This document shows positions 1,948 through 9,653 of a stretch of 17,615 bases of DNA, piece after piece. A program made the translations under genes and the position numbers. The DNA comes from Clostridiales bacterium (GTDB taxonomy: Bacteria > Bacillota > Clostridia > Peptostreptococcales > BM714). The stretch's first letter is position 1; each line of letters begins with the position of its first letter. The DNA lies in the NCBI GenBank assembly GCA_002869095.1, contig PKTO01000153.1:1-17615 (forward strand). Direction: 5' to 3'. The notes under the pieces are model-generated. The model was not told where the DNA came from. It searched no databases and was given only the letters and a program-made list of their open reading frames with translations.

Positions 1948-2730
1948 TCATCGTTTGATGTTGTTGATGAGGGACCACATATCATCGGCCGATTGCACCG
2001 CCCTTGCGTTCATTTGATATGCCCTTTGCGAAATCATCATATCAACCATTTCCTGACCTATGTCCACATTCGATTTTTCGACAAAGCCCTGTTTCACAAA
2101 AGTATCTACAGAATCACCCAAATCGATTTCCTCAACACCATCTTCTTCTGCTTTAAAAAGGCTTTCTCCCGCATCAATCAGATATTCTTCCGAGAGAACC
2201 CTGTATAGTTTCAAACATCCCTTTGATTCTCTGCTTCCATCCATTCCAATTGCTAACAATTCGCCTGAATTCGAAATCTGCAGCTGCCCCGGATTCAGTC
2301 CTTCCAATGATTCTTGATTGTCAATTTCCACTATGTATCCATCTCCATTGACCAGATTGCCATCAATCGAAATCTCGAATTGCCCGTTACTAGTCAACAA
2401 AAGTTCACCCGATTCGTTCTGCAATCCAAAAAACCCTTCACCTTCAATGGCCATTGCCATCGGATTCTCATCCTGCACGAGTATGCCTTGATCCAGTATA
2501 CGATAAGAAACGCCTGTTCTTACTCCCGTACCAAGTGCCGCGGTTTTTGCCGAATCATCTGTCGAGCCCGTTCCCGAACACTCCATTGAATCTTTTATCA
2601 GTTCCACAAAATCTACATCCAACCGTTTGTAGCCATCTGTTTGGCTGTTGGATATATTATTCGATATGACATCCAATCTGTCCTGATAGGCTTTCATGCC
2701 CGTCCTGCTGGTATGCAACGCTCTATACAT
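1948..2730 (-). CDS. flgG: Flagellar basal-body distal rod protein FlgG (FlgF/FlgG family)
   Basis: It forms the distal rod of the flagellar axle, outside the membrane, after export by the flagellar type III apparatus. The 260-residue product has the family's N-terminal helix ending in LDVISNNISNSQTDGYKR (residues about 19-36). It has the central IEGEGFFGLQ segment. Its C-terminal block, NVDIGQEMVDMMISQRAYQ followed by DDMWSLINNIKR, is close to the FlgG consensus. It starts with ATG behind AGGAGG with ideal spacing and lies 9 nt after the flgF-like gene. It ends in TGA. The FlgG assignment over FlgF rests on the C-terminal block and on its position as the second of the pair, as in clostridial flgG1-flgG pairs. 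It is the last clear flagellar gene here. Confidence 0.9.
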   Translation of the reverse strand: MYRALHTSRTGMKAYQDRLDVISNNISNSQTDGYKRLDVDFVELIKDSMECSGTGSTDDSAKTAALGTGVRTGVSYRILDQGILVQDENPMAMAIEGEGFFGLQNESGELLLTSNGQFEISIDGNLVNGDGYIVEIDNQESLEGLNPGQLQISNSGELLAIGMDGSRESKGCLKLYRVLSEEYLIDAGESLFKAEEDGVEEIDLGDSVDTFVKQGFVEKSNVDIGQEMVDMMISQRAYQMNARAVQSADDMWSLINNIKR

Positions 2731-2739
2731 GTTTTCCTC

Positions 2740-3513
2740 CTACAGCTTGCCTAATTCATTGACAGCCTTGCCCAAAGTTTCGTCCAATGATTGCAATATC
2801 CTTTGATTCGATTCGAAACTCCTTGAAATCTCCATCAGCTTAACCATTTCATCCAAAGCATTTACATTGGACGCTTCTTTCATTCCGGACACTATTCGGG
2901 CATTTTTCGCACTGATTTCATTATCCTCCTCGCCTTCCGGGAGCACCAATACACCTGCCTCATCTTCTTTGAGCAAAGACAAATCCTCGAAATCCGCAAG
3001 TACTATTTTGTAAATCCTTTTACCATCATCATCAATTATGTTGCCTTCTCCGTCGACGGTAAATTCTTCCGTTTCGATTTTTATGGGCTCTACCCTTCCT
3101 CCCGATGCCTTTTCCCCGCAAATGCAAAAACCCTCGGCATTTCTCAAGATGCCTTCGGTATCCCTGCGAACGGATCCGCTTCTTGTATATGCAGTCTGGC
3201 CGGATGGCAACTCTGTTATGAAGTATCCCTGACCATCAATAGCCAAATCACCGTGAAGCCCTGTTTCCCTAAGCAAACCCTGGGAAAAATCCATAACTGT
3301 GCCGTCTATTTCGACTCCCATCTCAATTGTCCCGATGGTAGTATTTTCGCCACAATTTCTTTTGATTACCCCCAATGAATCTCTTGCCTCCACTATTAGA
3401 GACTGCCTTTTGAAAGATGGTGTTTCAATGTTAGCTATGTTGTTGGATGTATTTTCCTGACGCTTTTGCTGGACTATCATGCCTGATGCCGCCGTATACA
3501 GTCCTCTGATCAT
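2740..3513 (-). CDS. flgF: Flagellar basal-body rod protein, FlgF/FlgG family (first of the pair)
   Basis: This is an exported rod component. The 257-residue product begins MIRGLYTAASGM and carries SNNIANIETPSFKR (about 23-36), the rod/hook family signature. It has the central IDGQGYFI segment. The C-terminal helix, SNVNALDEMVKLMEISRSFESNQRI, is more FlgF-like than FlgG-like. The start ATG at 3513 overlaps the TGA of the preceding 69-codon ORF (ATGA), and its GAGGAGG ribosome site lies inside that ORF, which implies translational coupling. It ends in TAG 9 nt before flgG. In some Clostridia the gene in this position is called flgG1, so the symbol is less certain than the family. Confidence 0.85.
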   Translation of the reverse strand: MIRGLYTAASGMIVQQKRQENTSNNIANIETPSFKRQSLIVEARDSLGVIKRNCGENTTIGTIEMGVEIDGTVMDFSQGLLRETGLHGDLAIDGQGYFITELPSGQTAYTRSGSVRRDTEGILRNAEGFCICGEKASGGRVEPIKIETEEFTVDGEGNIIDDDGKRIYKIVLADFEDLSLLKEDEAGVLVLPEGEEDNEISAKNARIVSGMKEASNVNALDEMVKLMEISRSFESNQRILQSLDETLGKAVNELGKL

Positions 3514-3719: not shown

Positions 3720-3925
3720 AACAATTCCCCCTTATTCAAGCCGGTATCAGCAGACAACTCTTCCATACTCCTTTTGTAAAAATCCTTGTCTGCCAAATTC
3801 AATTCGGCGGTTTTTTTCGTATTGATTTTGCCTGAAGAGCGCTTGCAATAAGCGATTCCTGTCAACTCGCCCAAAACTCCTTCCATGGATTCGATTTTTT
3901 CCCCCATGGATTCTTCCGATGTTTT

Positions 3926-3988
3926 AAAAATCTCCAATTTTTCTTCAAATAACTACAATTTTTCTTAAAATAACTCCAATTTTTTCTC
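3926..3988 (-). repeat. Three tandem 21-bp heptad-coding repeats; both in-frame stops are in the middle copy
   Basis: On the minus strand the copies are 3988-3968, 3967-3947 and 3946-3926. They translate as EKKLELF, *EKL*LF and EEKLEIF, so one unit equals one coiled-coil heptad. The middle copy differs from its neighbours mainly by G-to-T changes at the first base of two Glu codons, giving TAA and TAG. Removing one 21-bp unit that carries the stops would restore a continuous reading frame without shifting it. Confidence 0.85.
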
Positions 3989-4155
3989 CATGTTTTTTAT
4001 ATCGACATATGCAACTCCATTATCAAGGGGAAAACTCTCACTATTTTCGATTTCAAAATCAGAATTATCAAGAATTTCTTTGAAATCCATTTCATCCTTT
4101 CTTGCCCTCTGAGCATAAACAATGCATGCAAATCCAATAATCAAAATAGCAAAAG

Positions 4156-4872
4156 TCATTTCTTTAAACGCCCCGCTTCCTCGGAAATCCTTTTCCTTAA
4201 TTTCATCAACGTTTTCCCGTGTATTTGGGAAACTCTAGATAGTGAAACGCCTAAAATTGAAGCTATATCTTTCAATGGCATTTCTTCGAAATAATACAGA
4301 TTCAAAATCAACTTTTCCCTTTCCTTCAAATCGTCGATTGCTTTTGTCAGCATTGACGATTTCTCATCTTCCTCCATAAATACAACCGGATCGACGGCAT
4401 TTTCATCCACTAAAATATCCTTCAATGAATATTCCTGCTGTTCCCCCTTGAACAATGACCCTTCCAATGAATATTGGGAAAGAAAATGCACCGTTTGATG
4501 GATTTCATGCAATTTATCCATTCCAATGTCCAAATAATCACATATTTCATCATCTGTCGGTTCCCTAAATAATTGCTGTTGCAGATTTTTCACGGCATCA
4601 TACAAAAGATTGACCTTGCACATTTTGCTCCTTGAAACAAGTCCATTTCTTCTGAGTTCATCCAAAATCGCCCCTCGAATCCGCCATTTCGCATAATGTT
4701 CAAAGGCAGTATTTTGTGTGGAATCGTATTTAGCCATCGCATCCATGAGGCCAATTATTCCCATATTCACAAGATCGTCCCTCTCCATGTTCTGCTTGTT
4801 TCGAATTCCAATCCTGTCAACTACGCTTTGGACCAACGGCAAATATTTCAATATGTCATCTTGATTTTTCAT
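4156..4872 (-). CDS. fliA: Flagellar sigma factor sigma-28 (FliA/SigD family)
   Basis: It directs RNA polymerase to late flagellar, filament and chemotaxis promoters. The 238-residue product has sigma region 2, DLVNMGIIGLMDAMAKYD followed by YAKWRIRGAILDELRR (about residues 33-75). It has region 3 around residues 100-130. Region 4 is a helix-turn-helix, LKEREKLILNLYYFEEMPLKDIASILGVSLSRVSQI. Region 1.1 is absent, as usual for this group. I chose ATG at 4872, with AAGGA 6 nt upstream, over a TTG at 4914 that lacks a ribosome site and would add 14 atypical residues. It lies 34 nt after the PilZ gene and its TGA overlaps the next start. Its place at the end of the export and regulatory block matches fla/che operons of Firmicutes, where low distal transcription can limit sigma-28. 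Confidence 0.93.
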   Translation of the reverse strand: MKNQDDILKYLPLVQSVVDRIGIRNKQNMERDDLVNMGIIGLMDAMAKYDSTQNTAFEHYAKWRIRGAILDELRRNGLVSRSKMCKVNLLYDAVKNLQQQLFREPTDDEICDYLDIGMDKLHEIHQTVHFLSQYSLEGSLFKGEQQEYSLKDILVDENAVDPVVFMEEDEKSSMLTKAIDDLKEREKLILNLYYFEEMPLKDIASILGVSLSRVSQIHGKTLMKLRKRISEEAGRLKK

Positions 4873-4906
4873 ATATGATCCTTGCTCATTCACATCCTGC
4901 ACCCCA

Positions 4907-5587
4907 TTATTCAATACGGTTTTTTAATTGTTCCCGCATTTTTCTGAAAATATAGCCAACGATTTTTTCCTTTGTGCCGTAATCCAGTTCGTGGAAACTT
5001 ACACCAATCCTGTATTTTAGACCATTTTTCCCAAACAATTTTGTTTTGTGTACAATTTGACCCTTCAGAATCCCATTTATTGCAGGATGTCTTATCATCA
5101 ATGCCAAATTTTCTCCCAAAGGAAGGTTTTCATCAATTATCAATCCGATTCCCCTGCCGCTCAAATCCACACTTAAGCAATCAATCAAATCATCCTTAAA
5201 CCGTTCTTCCACCATTTCAATTCCAATATTTTTAAAATCAATGTTTCCAATCGATTTTCCATGGATATATTTCATTTCAATAACTATGGGCAAACGGAAT
5301 TCTTCTCTTCTTTGCACTACTTCGAAACTTTCCGGCTGCCGTATTTTGTAAAGAATTATATTTTCCTTGCCAACCCCTTCCACCAAACTCGAAAATGCAT
5401 ACAAGCGATTTTCCTCATAGTAAATGAATTTGATTTTATTTCCTGGCTCAAGACTTCTCCGAACTCCTTTTTCCAACGGGATTCCAATAAAGAAATATTT
5501 TTCATCCGAATCCTGGATCAAGGTTATTCCAATTCTTTTTTTATCCATCGAATACAATTCAACCTTGTTGTTGATGACAAAATCCAT
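4907..5587 (-). CDS. PilZ-domain c-di-GMP receptor, YcgR/YpfA (MotI/DgrA)-like
   Basis: Proteins of this family bind cyclic di-GMP and slow or stop the flagellar motor through the stator. The 226-residue product has an N-terminal beta-rich YcgR-type domain (about 1-85) and a C-terminal PilZ domain. The ligand motifs are intact: RxxxR at R94-R98 (in QRREEFR) and DxSxxG at D141-G146 (DLSGRG). The segment between the two motifs is rather long, with a charged insertion (about 108-133). ATG at 5587 follows flhG by 13 nt, with GGATGGAG upstream. It ends in TAA. Its operon position beside flhF/flhG and downstream of motAB supports a motor-brake role. The family assignment is firm; the effect on motility is inferred. 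Confidence 0.88.
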   Translation of the reverse strand: MDFVINNKVELYSMDKKRIGITLIQDSDEKYFFIGIPLEKGVRRSLEPGNKIKFIYYEENRLYAFSSLVEGVGKENIILYKIRQPESFEVVQRREEFRLPIVIEMKYIHGKSIGNIDFKNIGIEMVEERFKDDLIDCLSVDLSGRGIGLIIDENLPLGENLALMIRHPAINGILKGQIVHKTKLFGKNGLKYRIGVSFHELDYGTKEKIVGYIFRKMREQLKNRIE

Positions 5588-5600
5588 ATTGACTCCATCC

Positions 5601-6479
5601 TTATCCGAAAATTTTAACCAACCGATTATAAACCTCAGACATAGTCGTTATTTTGGCACCCTTTGCTGAAAAACCCGTTATCCCTTCTGCTATATTGTCT
5701 ATGCACTGGCTCGCCAGACAAGTAGGATAATTGATTATGAACGGTACCTGCTTCATTACCGAATTCCCAACTCTTGAATCGTCAGCTACATATCCCAGAT
5801 ATTCAAGTTCGATATTGAGGAAACTTTTTGCCGTCTTTTTGAGCTTGGCATATGTAAGTTTTCCCATCTTGTCGCTTGAAGCCTTATTGACTATGAGTTT
5901 GATCTTTCGGTCAATCTTAAGTTCTGAAATTATTTTCATGACACTGTATACGTCTGTTATTGCAGTAGGCTCGGGAGTAGTCACCAATATGACTTCCTGC
6001 GCAAAAGTGATGAATGACAACTGATTCATTGATATCCCCGCGCCAGTATCAATCAAAAGAATATCTATGTCATCAATCTCCGAAAACTGGTTCATCAATG
6101 CTTTTTGCGAGTTACTGTTCAATTTTGTCATTTCCAGCATTCCGGAACCACCCGGGATTATCCTTATGCCGCCTGGCCCCCGTACGACCGCATCCCGAAG
6201 TTTTTTCCCATCAAACATCACGTCCCTGAGAGTGACTTTTGGATATATTCCAAGGACAACATCCACATTCGCCAAACCCAAATCCGCATCTAGAATCATT
6301 ACTCTATATCCTTTTTTCTGCAGCGCTATAGCAGTGTTTACAACCACATTTGTCTTGCCCACTCCGCCTTTTCCGCTTGCAACTGTATAAATTTTTATCT
6401 CCTTCAATGGAGACTTATGTAAGCCTTCAGACTCCCTCTGCCTAACCAAATTCCTCAAACATTCCGCCTGGTCTCTCAT
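5601..6479 (-). CDS. flhG: Flagellar number regulator FlhG (MinD-like ATPase; also FleN/YlxH)
   Basis: FlhG is a membrane-associated ParA/MinD-type ATPase that sets flagellar number and position by controlling FlhF and C-ring assembly. The start was set at ATG 6479 because it follows GGGGGGAG, overlaps the flhF TGA (ATGA), and puts the DQAxxLR motif that activates FlhF at residues 3-9 (DQAECLR). A TTG start at 6497 would extend it needlessly. Other motifs are the deviant Walker A SGKGGVGKT (35-43), DADLGLANVD (64-73) with switch I Asp, and DTGAGIS (144-150) as Walker B/switch II. The 292-residue length is normal. It ends in TAA 13 nt before the PilZ gene. Identification is secure. Confidence 0.95.
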   Translation of the reverse strand: MRDQAECLRNLVRQRESEGLHKSPLKEIKIYTVASGKGGVGKTNVVVNTAIALQKKGYRVMILDADLGLANVDVVLGIYPKVTLRDVMFDGKKLRDAVVRGPGGIRIIPGGSGMLEMTKLNSNSQKALMNQFSEIDDIDILLIDTGAGISMNQLSFITFAQEVILVTTPEPTAITDVYSVMKIISELKIDRKIKLIVNKASSDKMGKLTYAKLKKTAKSFLNIELEYLGYVADDSRVGNSVMKQVPFIINYPTCLASQCIDNIAEGITGFSAKGAKITTMSEVYNRLVKIFG

Positions 6480-7585
6480 ATCTTGGACTCCCCCCAAGCA
6501 TATTTAAATAAAAGTTCCTTCGTTGCTATCTTCATATCATCAGGGACAACCTGTCCTACGCTTATGTATGAAACCGGTTTTTCGGAAAAGTAAAAAGCAT
6601 TCAAAATATTGCCGTAGCTCTGTGTCTCATCCATTTTTGTGAATATAAAATGATCATAATCCATACATTCGTAGCTCTTTACAATTCTTATAAAATCTGA
6701 ATTTTTTGTGGTCATGCTTGCTACGCAATATACATTCTTTTCTTCAATATCGTCAAGATACTTCTTCATTTCATCGAGTTGGCGCTCGTTTTTATGGCTT
6801 CTTCCTGTCGTGTCAACCAGTATCAAATCACAGTCGTCTAGACGTTCCATGGCCCTTCTCATTTCCTCATGGTTAGCTACAACCTCAATGGGAATATCCA
6901 GTATGTTCGCATAAATCCTAAGCTGCTCCACAGCTCCTATTCGGTATGTATCAATCGTAATAAGCCCGACTTTTTTCTGGTGTATTAGAGATTCGCTCGA
7001 GGCGATTTTTGCAATTGTTGTGGTTTTCCCCACTCCGGTAGGACCTACGAAAACCATAGTCCTTCCTCTCGGCAAATCCACCTTGACCTTTTCATTGAAA
7101 CGATCTTTCAAAAACTCGTAAAGAACTATCCTATTTACATCTTCCCTGTCTATTTTTTTTACGGAGCAATATGTATCGAAATCATCTATGACTTTCTTGT
7201 TGAAATCCATTTCTATAAGCATGTCGTGCAAATCCTTATTTGCGTCTGTAACTTGCTTTTGCCGAACTTCCCTTTCCGGCTTTTCTGCAAGACCCTTTAC
7301 AATTTCCCTCAATTCCCTGACTTCGTCACGTATGCCTTGCGTCATCTTTTCAGCGGCAATCTTGGTTTCTTCGGATTCATCAGTTCTTTTCCTTATTCCT
7401 TTGCCTTGGATTTCCAACGATTCAGTTGCCGCCGTCACTTCTATCAATCGTCTTCTAAAAAAACCAAAAAAGCCTTTTTGTCTGACATTGCGTTTACTTA
7501 CAATAACAGCATTGTTGCCTAAATCCTGTTTAATCTTCATCATAGCTTCATACATATCGTTCACTAAATAATTCCTAATGATCAT
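6476..7585 (-). CDS. flhF: Flagellar SRP-family GTPase FlhF
   Basis: FlhF is the third SRP GTPase, with FtsY and Ffh, and helps choose the flagellar assembly site at the membrane. The 369-residue product has a basic N-terminal domain (B domain, about 1-115, with KRNVRQKGFFGFFRRR at 31-46), a helical N domain and a G domain. The GTPase motifs are GPTGVGKT (181-188), DTYRIGAVEQL (212-222), DTTGRS (258-263) and TKMDE (316-320). Its ATG lies 11 nt inside the end of flhA, so translation is probably coupled, with GGTGAG upstream. It ends in TGA overlapping flhG. Nothing looks damaged here, in contrast to flhA just upstream in the operon. Confidence 0.95.
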   Translation of the reverse strand: MIIRNYLVNDMYEAMMKIKQDLGNNAVIVSKRNVRQKGFFGFFRRRLIEVTAATESLEIQGKGIRKRTDESEETKIAAEKMTQGIRDEVRELREIVKGLAEKPEREVRQKQVTDANKDLHDMLIEMDFNKKVIDDFDTYCSVKKIDREDVNRIVLYEFLKDRFNEKVKVDLPRGRTMVFVGPTGVGKTTTIAKIASSESLIHQKKVGLITIDTYRIGAVEQLRIYANILDIPIEVVANHEEMRRAMERLDDCDLILVDTTGRSHKNERQLDEMKKYLDDIEEKNVYCVASMTTKNSDFIRIVKSYECMDYDHFIFTKMDETQSYGNILNAFYFSEKPVSYISVGQVVPDDMKIATKELLFKYAWGESKI

Positions 7586-8483
7586 TCGTTCTCACCATCC
7601 CCACTCCTTCTATCTCTACCGAATTCGGTATTTCATTCAATGAAATTACCGCCAAATCCGGAAAGGTCATCTCAATCAATCGCTTGAAAGGGCTACGTAT
7701 TCTTGGCGATGCCAGCACCACCGGTTTCATGCTTTTGAGTGCGCCTTCCTGTTGTAGACAATCCAGACTCTCAAGAACTGAAGTGTTTAGATCCGGGCTG
7801 ATCGCCGGAAAAGAACCCTGGAAGGATTTCTGTATGTTCTCGTATATCTCTTGTTCTATTTCCGGATGAATTGTAATGACATCCAAGAATCCTTTTTCAT
7901 TAAGATGTCTTTTCACTATAGTCCTTCCCAATCTGTGTCTTACGTATTCCGTCAATATCTCCGTATCTTTAGTGGTGACTGCATAGTCGGCCAAAGTTTC
8001 CAGAATCGATACCAAATCCCTTATAGGCACCTGCTCACGCAAAAGATTCTGCAGAACCTTTTGCACCTCGCCGACAGAAAGTAAATCTGGTATCAGTTCC
8101 TCCACAACTGCACCATGCTTTTCTTTCACCATGTCCAAGAGGGATTTTACTTCCTGACGCCCCATCAGTTCATGACTGTGCTTTCTTATCACCTCGTTCA
8201 TGTGGGTGACCATTACCGTCGTAGGATCGACAATTGTATACCCCAGCATCTCAGCTTTTTCCTTTTGTGATTCATCCGCCCAAACCGCAGGCAGCCCAAA
8301 AGCCGGTTCGACAGTGGGCTTTCCTTTAATATCCATTTTATCACTTCCTGGGTCCATAACAAGATAATGGTTATGTAAAATCTCTCCAGATGCGATTTCG
8401 TTGCCCCTGATTTTTATGACATACCTGTCAGCTGGCAACTGCAGATTGTCGCGGATTCTTATGGGTTGTACGATTATGCCCAT
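7575..8483 (-). CDS. flhA: FlhA C-terminal cytosolic part, possible reinitiation product (302 residues)
   Basis: It begins with an ATG that directly abuts the TAA (TAAATG) in the same frame. An AAGGAG at 8500-8505 lies 16 nt upstream, too far for efficient de novo initiation but usable in termination-reinitiation. It carries most of the cytosolic FlhA domain: VQPIRIRDNLQL, then YTIVDPTTVMVTH, LIPDLLSVGEVQKVLQNLLRE and a C-terminal tail ending VRTNDH. Whether it is made, and whether two separate halves could work together, is not shown by sequence. Confidence 0.5.
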   Translation of the reverse strand: MGIIVQPIRIRDNLQLPADRYVIKIRGNEIASGEILHNHYLVMDPGSDKMDIKGKPTVEPAFGLPAVWADESQKEKAEMLGYTIVDPTTVMVTHMNEVIRKHSHELMGRQEVKSLLDMVKEKHGAVVEELIPDLLSVGEVQKVLQNLLREQVPIRDLVSILETLADYAVTTKDTEILTEYVRHRLGRTIVKRHLNEKGFLDVITIHPEIEQEIYENIQKSFQGSFPAISPDLNTSVLESLDCLQQEGALKSMKPVVLASPRIRSPFKRLIEMTFPDLAVISLNEIPNSVEIEGVGMVRTNDH

Positions 8484-9653
8484 TTAGGTCGCGTTCTGTC
8501 TCCTTACTGCCGCAATCCTATCCAAGAGGTCACCTCCGGAAGATGAATCGGCCAACGAAATAAGCCCGTATCCAATCTCGATTTCCAGTGCTTCGACCTG
8601 TATATATCTGACAACATTTTCAGGTTCGCGCTCAACTTCAGAAACAGGTCTTGCAATCTTTGCATTTTCCATACGTATTTTCTGTTTTTCCTCTTCATTC
8701 AAAAAATACGCCAGAAATCCGTTCAAGCCCGCCAATACGATGAATGGCAGATTTGGCAATGCTGGAATCAAGCCAAGAACAAAAAGTACTACGGATGTTA
8801 TGGCTATGACTTTAGGCACAGAGAAAAGCTGTTTTGAAAGTTCACTTCCAAAATCTATTCCTGATGCCGATCGTGTCACCAAAATTCCCGAAGCTACCGA
8901 TATCAGAAGAGCCGGCACTTGGCTTACAAGGCCGTCGCCTATGGTCAATACCCCGAACATCGGTATGGCTTCGCCGAATGGAATGCCCTTCTGTCCCACA
9001 AAAATTGCGATTCCACCTATGAAATTTATTATGACTATCACTATGCCCGCGATGGCGTCGCCTTTTACAAATTTGCTGGCGCCATCCATAGAACCATAGA
9101 AATCCGCTTCCCTTTGCAGATTTTGCCTTCGTATTCTCGCCTCTTGATCTGTAATGACTCCGGCGTTGAGGTCGGCATCTATGCTCATCTGTTTACCGGG
9201 CATGGCGTCCAATGTGAAACGCGCCGCCACCTCAGCCACCCTTCCGGCTCCGCTGGTGATGACAATAAATTGAATTACTACAATGATTATAAATATTATT
9301 GCTCCGACCACATAGTTGTCTCCCGTCACAAACCCCCCGAAGGCTGCGATTATCTCCCCCGCGGCCCCCCGGCTCATTATCAGGCGAGTCGAGGACACAT
9401 TCAATCCCAGCCTGAAGAGAGTTGTAACCAGAAGCAGTGTCGGAAAAACCGAAAACTGGAGTATGTCCGTTGTAAACAGAGTCAACAGCATTATTATCAT
9501 CGCAAGAGTGATGTTGAATGCCAACAATATGTCCAGCAATATCGGATGCATGGGCAAAACTATCATTCCCACTATCCCCACTACCCCAAAGGCGGCCAAT
9601 GCTCCCATATTTTCGCCTATGCTTTTAATTACTCCAGTCCGATTATTTTCCAT
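8484..9653 (-). CDS. flhA: FlhA N-terminal part as translated to the internal stop (389 residues)
   Basis: This is the part certain to be translated if TAA is read as stop. It contains the eight-helix membrane domain with the conserved cytoplasmic FHIPEP-type region (GRVAEVAARFTLDAMPGKQM, near residues 138-157). This is followed by ADLNAGVI and the RRQNLQREADFYGSMDGA segment. The linker and the first helix of the cytosolic domain (GGDLLDRIAAVRRQ) complete it. Without the remaining 302 residues it could not bind export chaperones. Confidence 0.6.
   Translation of the reverse strand: MENNRTGVIKSIGENMGALAAFGVVGIVGMIVLPMHPILLDILLAFNITLAMIIMLLTLFTTDILQFSVFPTLLLVTTLFRLGLNVSSTRLIMSRGAAGEIIAAFGGFVTGDNYVVGAIIFIIIVVIQFIVITSGAGRVAEVAARFTLDAMPGKQMSIDADLNAGVITDQEARIRRQNLQREADFYGSMDGASKFVKGDAIAGIVIVIINFIGGIAIFVGQKGIPFGEAIPMFGVLTIGDGLVSQVPALLISVASGILVTRSASGIDFGSELSKQLFSVPKVIAITSVVLFVLGLIPALPNLPFIVLAGLNGFLAYFLNEEEKQKIRMENAKIARPVSEVEREPENVVRYIQVEALEIEIGYGLISLADSSSGGDLLDRIAAVRRQNAT

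Follow-up and report, generated by a model that had tools for sequence, protein, structure and literature searches.

The flagellar export apparatus of Bacillus subtilis is activated by SwrB, and secretion of the hook protein depends on FlhA, which acts downstream of SwrB (PMC4526659). Here we analyse a window of 17,615 bp, the entire contig C111 of a draft genome (G000), which carries a flagellar gene cluster on its minus strand and in which flhA and a swrB-like gene are interrupted by three in-frame stops. A reading of the sequence alone had singled out these stops as Glu or Asp codons lost through G-to-T changes and had offered a consensus sequencing error, recent mutations accompanying loss of motility, a mutator background or a Glu-charged suppressor tRNA as explanations. 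The presence of the three misplaced stops is confirmed. As to their cause, we give somewhat better than an even chance to consensus error: in a thinly covered, strain-mixed draft, substitutions of the G:C-to-T:A type would have fallen by chance on Glu codons, the commonest nonsense target of that type, and the resulting stops would be without biological function.

UAA and UAG are reassigned to Glu in ciliates, and the stops described here likewise occur where relatives carry Glu; unlike in such a code, half of the comparable stops in the draft stand at other residues, both codons terminate genes and no matching tRNA is present among those found. In a mutator of the 8-oxoguanine (8-oxoG) type, MutY and MutM (Fpg) are lost; the draft has a comparable G:C-to-T:A lean in its radical and nonsense changes and leaves the MutY and Fpg models unmatched, but a relative of the same genus lacks the same models and shows neither the lean nor the excess of stops. 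The likeness to metagenome-type drafts that contain errors or mixed strains lies in the isolated substitutions, the stops near contig ends, the disagreeing contig overlaps and the single gene copies, although the stops of the window are interior to a contig of 17.6 kb. Finally, the locus resembles loss-of-function alleles of flhA and swrB in bearing nonsense changes in two genes of the same export step (PMC4526659), and differs from them in that neither FlhA nor any other flagellar gene of the window is decayed any further.

In-frame stops in flhA and the swrB-like gene

The interrupted flhA frame represents a single family from end to end. Its halves match positions 1-365 and 368-656 of the 657 positions of the FHIPEP profile (Pfam), and 5-379 and 382-678 of the 678 positions of TIGR01398; apart from the stop they form one frame, and neither half alone reaches the curated cut-off of TIGR01398. 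The TAA reported in the sequence-only reading is present and in frame at codon 390, and the acidic residue expected there is indeed the usual one. Among the best 120 of 8000 scored homologues, this column holds Glu in 108, Asp in 10 and Gln in 2, with Glu in all 10 of the nearest; in a genome of the same genus (G001) and in two order-level genomes (G009 and G020), the FlhA frame is open with Glu opposite the stop. More broadly, an FlhA match exists in 22 of the 31 genomes compared, which comprised the draft and 30 relatives; in all 21 besides the draft it lies in an open frame of 674 to 721 amino acids.

No split FlhA occurs among the best 120 homologues, all of which are 673 to 700 amino acids long; the closest FlhA in the protein collection searched is 89% identical, so that a second copy of the same species was not found in that collection. 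Within the draft, each flhA half is present once. Three residues are private to the FlhA of the draft, while the 29 others of the first 30 sequences compared have between 0 and 11; apart from the stop, the protein is as well preserved as in relatives, with no other sign of decay in its sequence. The Met that directly follows the stop is common in the family at that position (86 of the 120 listed homologues). An AAGGAG motif at 8505-8500 precedes its ATG by 16 bases, which is a long spacing for a ribosome site.

Both stops of the swrB-like gene are likewise present and in frame. Both fall within the central copy of a tandem repeat, 12 bases apart, and the other two copies have sense codons at these places, as the sequence-only reading had stated. 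The gene is called swrB-like because of its position and layout: an N-terminal hydrophobic stretch and the place after sigD fit a short single-pass membrane protein such as SwrB, whereas no Pfam or NCBIfam model matched either piece of the open reading frame (ORF). A protein search returned 31 candidates and no homologue at E 0.01, and tblastn against the gene that follows sigD in G001 gave a weak match (25.8% over 151 amino acids). The gene is present once in the draft, and no second contig for it or for flhA was found there. The middle of the gene is poorly conserved even inside the genus.

The remaining flagellar genes of the window are open frames, in agreement with the intactness claimed for them. 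Two adjacent flgF/flgG-like rod or hook genes (1948-3513) come after the swrB-like gene, an order that is the same in G001, G009 and G020.

Table 1. Features of the window at and around the interrupted genes
Feature	Position	Strand	Remarks
flhA frame (flagellar export apparatus)	7575..9653	-	Broken at codon 390; Pfam FHIPEP and NCBIfam TIGR01398 on both halves
In-frame TAA in flhA	8484..8486	-	Codon 390 of a 692-codon frame; read 8486-8484
Downstream flhA fragment, 302-amino-acid ORF	7575..8483	-	Intact; ATG at 8483-8481 immediately after the TAA
swrB-like frame, 155 codons	3692..4159	-	Broken at codons 65 and 69; in G001, the gene in the same place after sigD gives a weak tblastn match
In-frame TAA in the swrB-like gene	3965..3967	-	Codon 65
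In-frame TAG in the swrB-like gene	3953..3955	-	Codon 69
21-bp tandem repeat	3924..3984	-	3.0 copies, 85% matches; encodes a Glu/Leu-rich heptad-like stretch
sigD-like gene	4156..4914	-	Intact; upstream of the swrB-like gene; 65% identical to its G001 counterpart over 250 amino acids

Stops across the draft and at its contig ends

The draft comprises 1.93 Mb in 370 contigs and is 90.9% complete and 2.6% contaminated. From it we sampled 77 contigs (28 of them N-only), the window and 7 shorter loci, amounting to 493 kb of readable sequence, and from G001 about 1.10 Mb; the open frames of each were compared with the other by tblastn in both directions. Under a strict filter that demanded aligned residues on both sides of a stop, and that was applied alike in both directions, 8 in-frame stops were retained in the draft versus 1 in G001, over about 74,700 aligned codons each. 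With two other parameter settings, the counts were 8 and 1 in one case and 7 and 1 in the other. As judged by eye, what was lost between looser filters and this one was chiefly rows at the starts or ends of genes and in frames that were of low identity or likely antisense. Frame breaks are not in excess in the draft, with 4 against 5 in G001.

The sequence-only reading had suggested a scan for further stops at conserved Glu codons, and such cases do exist in the 493 kb scanned, but Glu accounts, with the flhA stop included, for only 4 of the 8; the others are aligned with Tyr (2), Gly (1) and Ser (1), and one of these four is TGA. Judged by the copies in the relative, the affected genes encode FlhA, an RND permease, a Kbl/BioF-type enzyme, rubrerythrin, ArgG, an AlaDh_PNT_N protein, MgtE and a TrkH-type transporter. 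Neither Glu codons nor flagellar genes are thus the only sites of stops in the draft, and recent loss of motility is insufficient as their sole cause, as stops also fall in unrelated genes. The Kbl/BioF-type gene (L119:2600-3400), open in the relative, is interrupted twice in the draft, by an in-frame stop (3390) and by a frame break (about 2620). In G001, the single clear in-frame stop (L160:7371) is likewise aligned with Glu.

Four of the 8 draft stops lie less than 200 bp from a contig end, versus 0.29 expected (p 1e-4); the count is 4 of 8 at 300 and 500 bp as well, and 2 of 8 at 100 bp. Radical changes and stops taken together are also enriched less than 200 bp from the ends (14 versus 5.1 expected), and conservative changes are not raised there (75 seen, about 80 expected). 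Among the contigs sampled, 7 pairs of ends overlap: 2 pairs agree fully over 99 bp, and the other 5 (L042/L114, L113/L183, L119/L188, L163/L178 and L168/L173) have 88.5 to 98.8% identity over gap-free stretches of 152 to 380 bp. In the four differing pairs that could be framed, 44 of 60 mismatches are synonymous, so that the bin is a mixture of close strains; the others include mismatches that look like errors.

One of these overlaps bears on a stop directly. Contig C228 (L119) ends with an in-frame stop in a region where the overlapping C329 has a sense codon instead; the three C228/C329 mismatches nearest that end are all nonsynonymous, and two adjacent nonsynonymous changes lie near the stop. 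The C223/C260 overlap contains an adjacent GG/TT disagreement. The two stops of the swrB-like gene, which amount to two changes in 13 bp, resemble these clustered overlap disagreements.

Type of change, repair enzymes and tRNAs

In the aligned genes, the targets at which a G:C-to-T:A change creates a stop are Glu codons in 47%, GGA in 25%, Ser in 15%, Tyr in 9% and Cys in 4%. Given this share, the placement of all three window stops at Glu is unremarkable (p about 0.1), as is Glu in 4 of the 6 draft stops of G:C-to-T:A type (p 0.29) or in 6 of 8 when the two swrB stops are added (p 0.11). The type of change is itself mildly unusual: G:C-to-T:A accounts for 6 of the 8 draft stops, or 8 of 10 with those of the swrB-like gene (p between 0.04 and 0.002, according to how transitions are weighted), and G:C-to-A:T transitions for 0 of 8 nonsense changes. 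Among radical G/T differences in conserved contexts, expressed as coding equivalents, T is in the draft in 30 and in G001 in 11, in a comparison that is unpolarised and for which the radical class was chosen after the stops were seen. The lean is opposite in conservative (305:387) and synonymous (2060:2618) changes (Fisher p 0.0003 and 0.0002 versus radical). The radical lean to T in the draft fits an error- or damage-like process with Glu as the largest nonsense target. The bases that precede the G>T changes give no clear signature, with A before G in 14 cases versus 8.5 expected and G before G in 7 versus 14.6.

The suspicion of mutY or mutM defects raised in the sequence-only reading holds in so far as the models stay below cut-off in the draft; they do so equally in the relative, whereas the G/T asymmetry points at the draft. 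The MutY model scores 84.4 bits in the draft and 80.1 bits in G001 against a cut-off of 286.5, and these weak matches are likely to be an Nth-type enzyme. The Fpg model has no match in G001 or in the incomplete draft, and Fpg was likewise not found in 6 of 14 control genomes. Absence of these model matches is not specific to the draft, as the relative shares it, and because that relative has no excess of stops, loss of the enzymes by itself does not explain the draft. G001 also contains, at L185 (G001:C25:13140-13451), a weak DNA-glycosylase match that scores 35.4 bits with the MutY model and is interrupted by one in-frame TAG.

Of 202 gene 3' ends aligned in the sampled draft, 66 carry TAA, 60 TGA, 50 TAG and 26 another codon. 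TAA and TAG, already noted in the sequence-only reading as the ends of many intact genes, are thus not avoided as terminators (116 of 202). A stop-reading anticodon, whether UUA, CUA or any other, was found neither among the 16 tRNAs found in the draft, an incomplete set, nor among the 31 seen of 35 tRNAs in G001. A Glu suppressor or recoding was rejected, given that four of the eight comparable stops replace other residues, that a TGA is among them and that TAA and TAG end genes.

Weighing the explanations

Consensus error gains from the clustering of stops at contig ends and from the disagreements between overlapping contigs, and the process behind those end-clustered stops has probably produced the stops of the window as well. 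Further points in its favour are the 8 in-frame stops against 1 in G001 under the strict filter, the lean of radical G/T differences to T in the draft, the predominance of G:C-to-T:A among the stops and the otherwise good preservation of FlhA. Several observations weigh against it. The stops of the window lie 4 to 9 kb from either contig end, deep enough inside the contig that coverage there should be normal, and overlapping contigs sought for the stops at the ends of C10 and C226 were not found. Looser filters show no difference between draft and relative: the raw tblastn rows with stops number 33 and 33, a first local-identity filter left 12 and 15, and a conserved-context filter left 8 and 8 (draft and G001, respectively). 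When changes in the window's flagellar genes were polarised, at sites identical in at least four other sequences, outliers numbered 87 in the window and 97 in G001; unambiguous G>T changes among them numbered 6 (the stop included) and 11, respectively. As stops make up 11.6% of G:C-to-T:A changes, three stops would imply a total of about 26 G:C-to-T:A changes in the contig, enough for conserved sites to show an excess, and no such excess is seen. Either a few errors struck unfortunate positions, then, or the stops are true nulls of very recent origin. Unevenness of the events among contigs is not significant (p 0.15), and the context of the G>T changes lacks the CGG preference associated with library oxidation.

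The main rival is that the stops are real, recent null alleles and involve no recoding, so that flhA and swrB function would be lacking in the strain sequenced or in a minor strain of the mixed bin; we regard this as a serious possibility, although one well short of even. FlhA would then end at residue 389 in its cytoplasmic part, the export gate would fail and the cell would be non-motile. The depth of the stops within the contig and the lack of a missense excess in the window speak for such alleles, as does the fact that FlhA and SwrB serve one process; the genes with stops elsewhere in the draft are probably not universally essential, the Kbl/BioF-type gene combines its stop with a frame break as a true pseudogene would, and the relative also has one clear in-frame stop. 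These points are offset by the open frames of the other flagellar genes and the otherwise undecayed FlhA, by the clustering of draft stops at contig ends, one of them contradicted inside the assembly, and by the complete lack of G:C-to-A:T transitions among the nonsense changes. Of the four explanations first offered, consensus error and recent null alleles both stand.

A G:C-to-T:A mutator, in which a lineage without MutY and Fpg would convert 8-oxoG lesions into G>T mutations that inactivate genes at Glu, Gly (GGA) and Ser (TCA) codons, is improbable. The unmatched models, the radical asymmetry of 30:11 and the preponderance of G:C-to-T:A stops (8 of 10) are what it predicts, but G001 lacks the same models and nonetheless has a single clear stop and the opposite G/T lean; absence from a draft that is 90.9% complete is no proof, the more so as Fpg is missing in some controls too, and a missense excess in the window is not seen. 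A working split or read-through of any kind is, with all variants taken together, rather less probable again. That termination tunes flagellar export, with FlhA made in two pieces by UAA-AUG stop and restart or by partial read-through, seems very unlikely. Slimmer still is the chance of a split FlhA in which termination at the UAA and restart at the adjoining AUG would yield halves that assemble into a working export gate: the ATG directly behind the stop, the intact downstream ORF and the frequency of Met at that position invite this interpretation, but the ATG encodes a Met that is ancestral in the family, so that its position needs no explanation, none of the best 120 homologues is split, the other matched genomes are all open and the Shine-Dalgarno-like AAGGAG lies 16 bases off. 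We give least credence to a Glu-inserting suppressor tRNA that would read UAA and UAG so that the stops are partly translated as Glu, the one original explanation left unsupported. It would account for the three window stops and the 4 of 8 in the sampled draft that align with Glu, but Glu is expected at nearly half of G:C-to-T:A nonsense changes anyway, the other four align with Gly, Ser, Tyr and Tyr and include a TGA that the proposed tRNA would not read, and the use of TAA and TAG as terminators and the tRNAs found both argue against it, although absence from the incomplete tRNA set of the draft is no proof.

The stops of the window are of little significance in themselves and serve as a caution for fragmented drafts. 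Because Glu codons make up about half of the nonsense targets in these genes, in-frame stops aligned with Glu are what an unbiased G:C-to-T:A process, whether of error or of mutation, is expected to produce. Comparison with a sister genome, distance to contig ends and contig overlaps can test such stops without recourse to reads.

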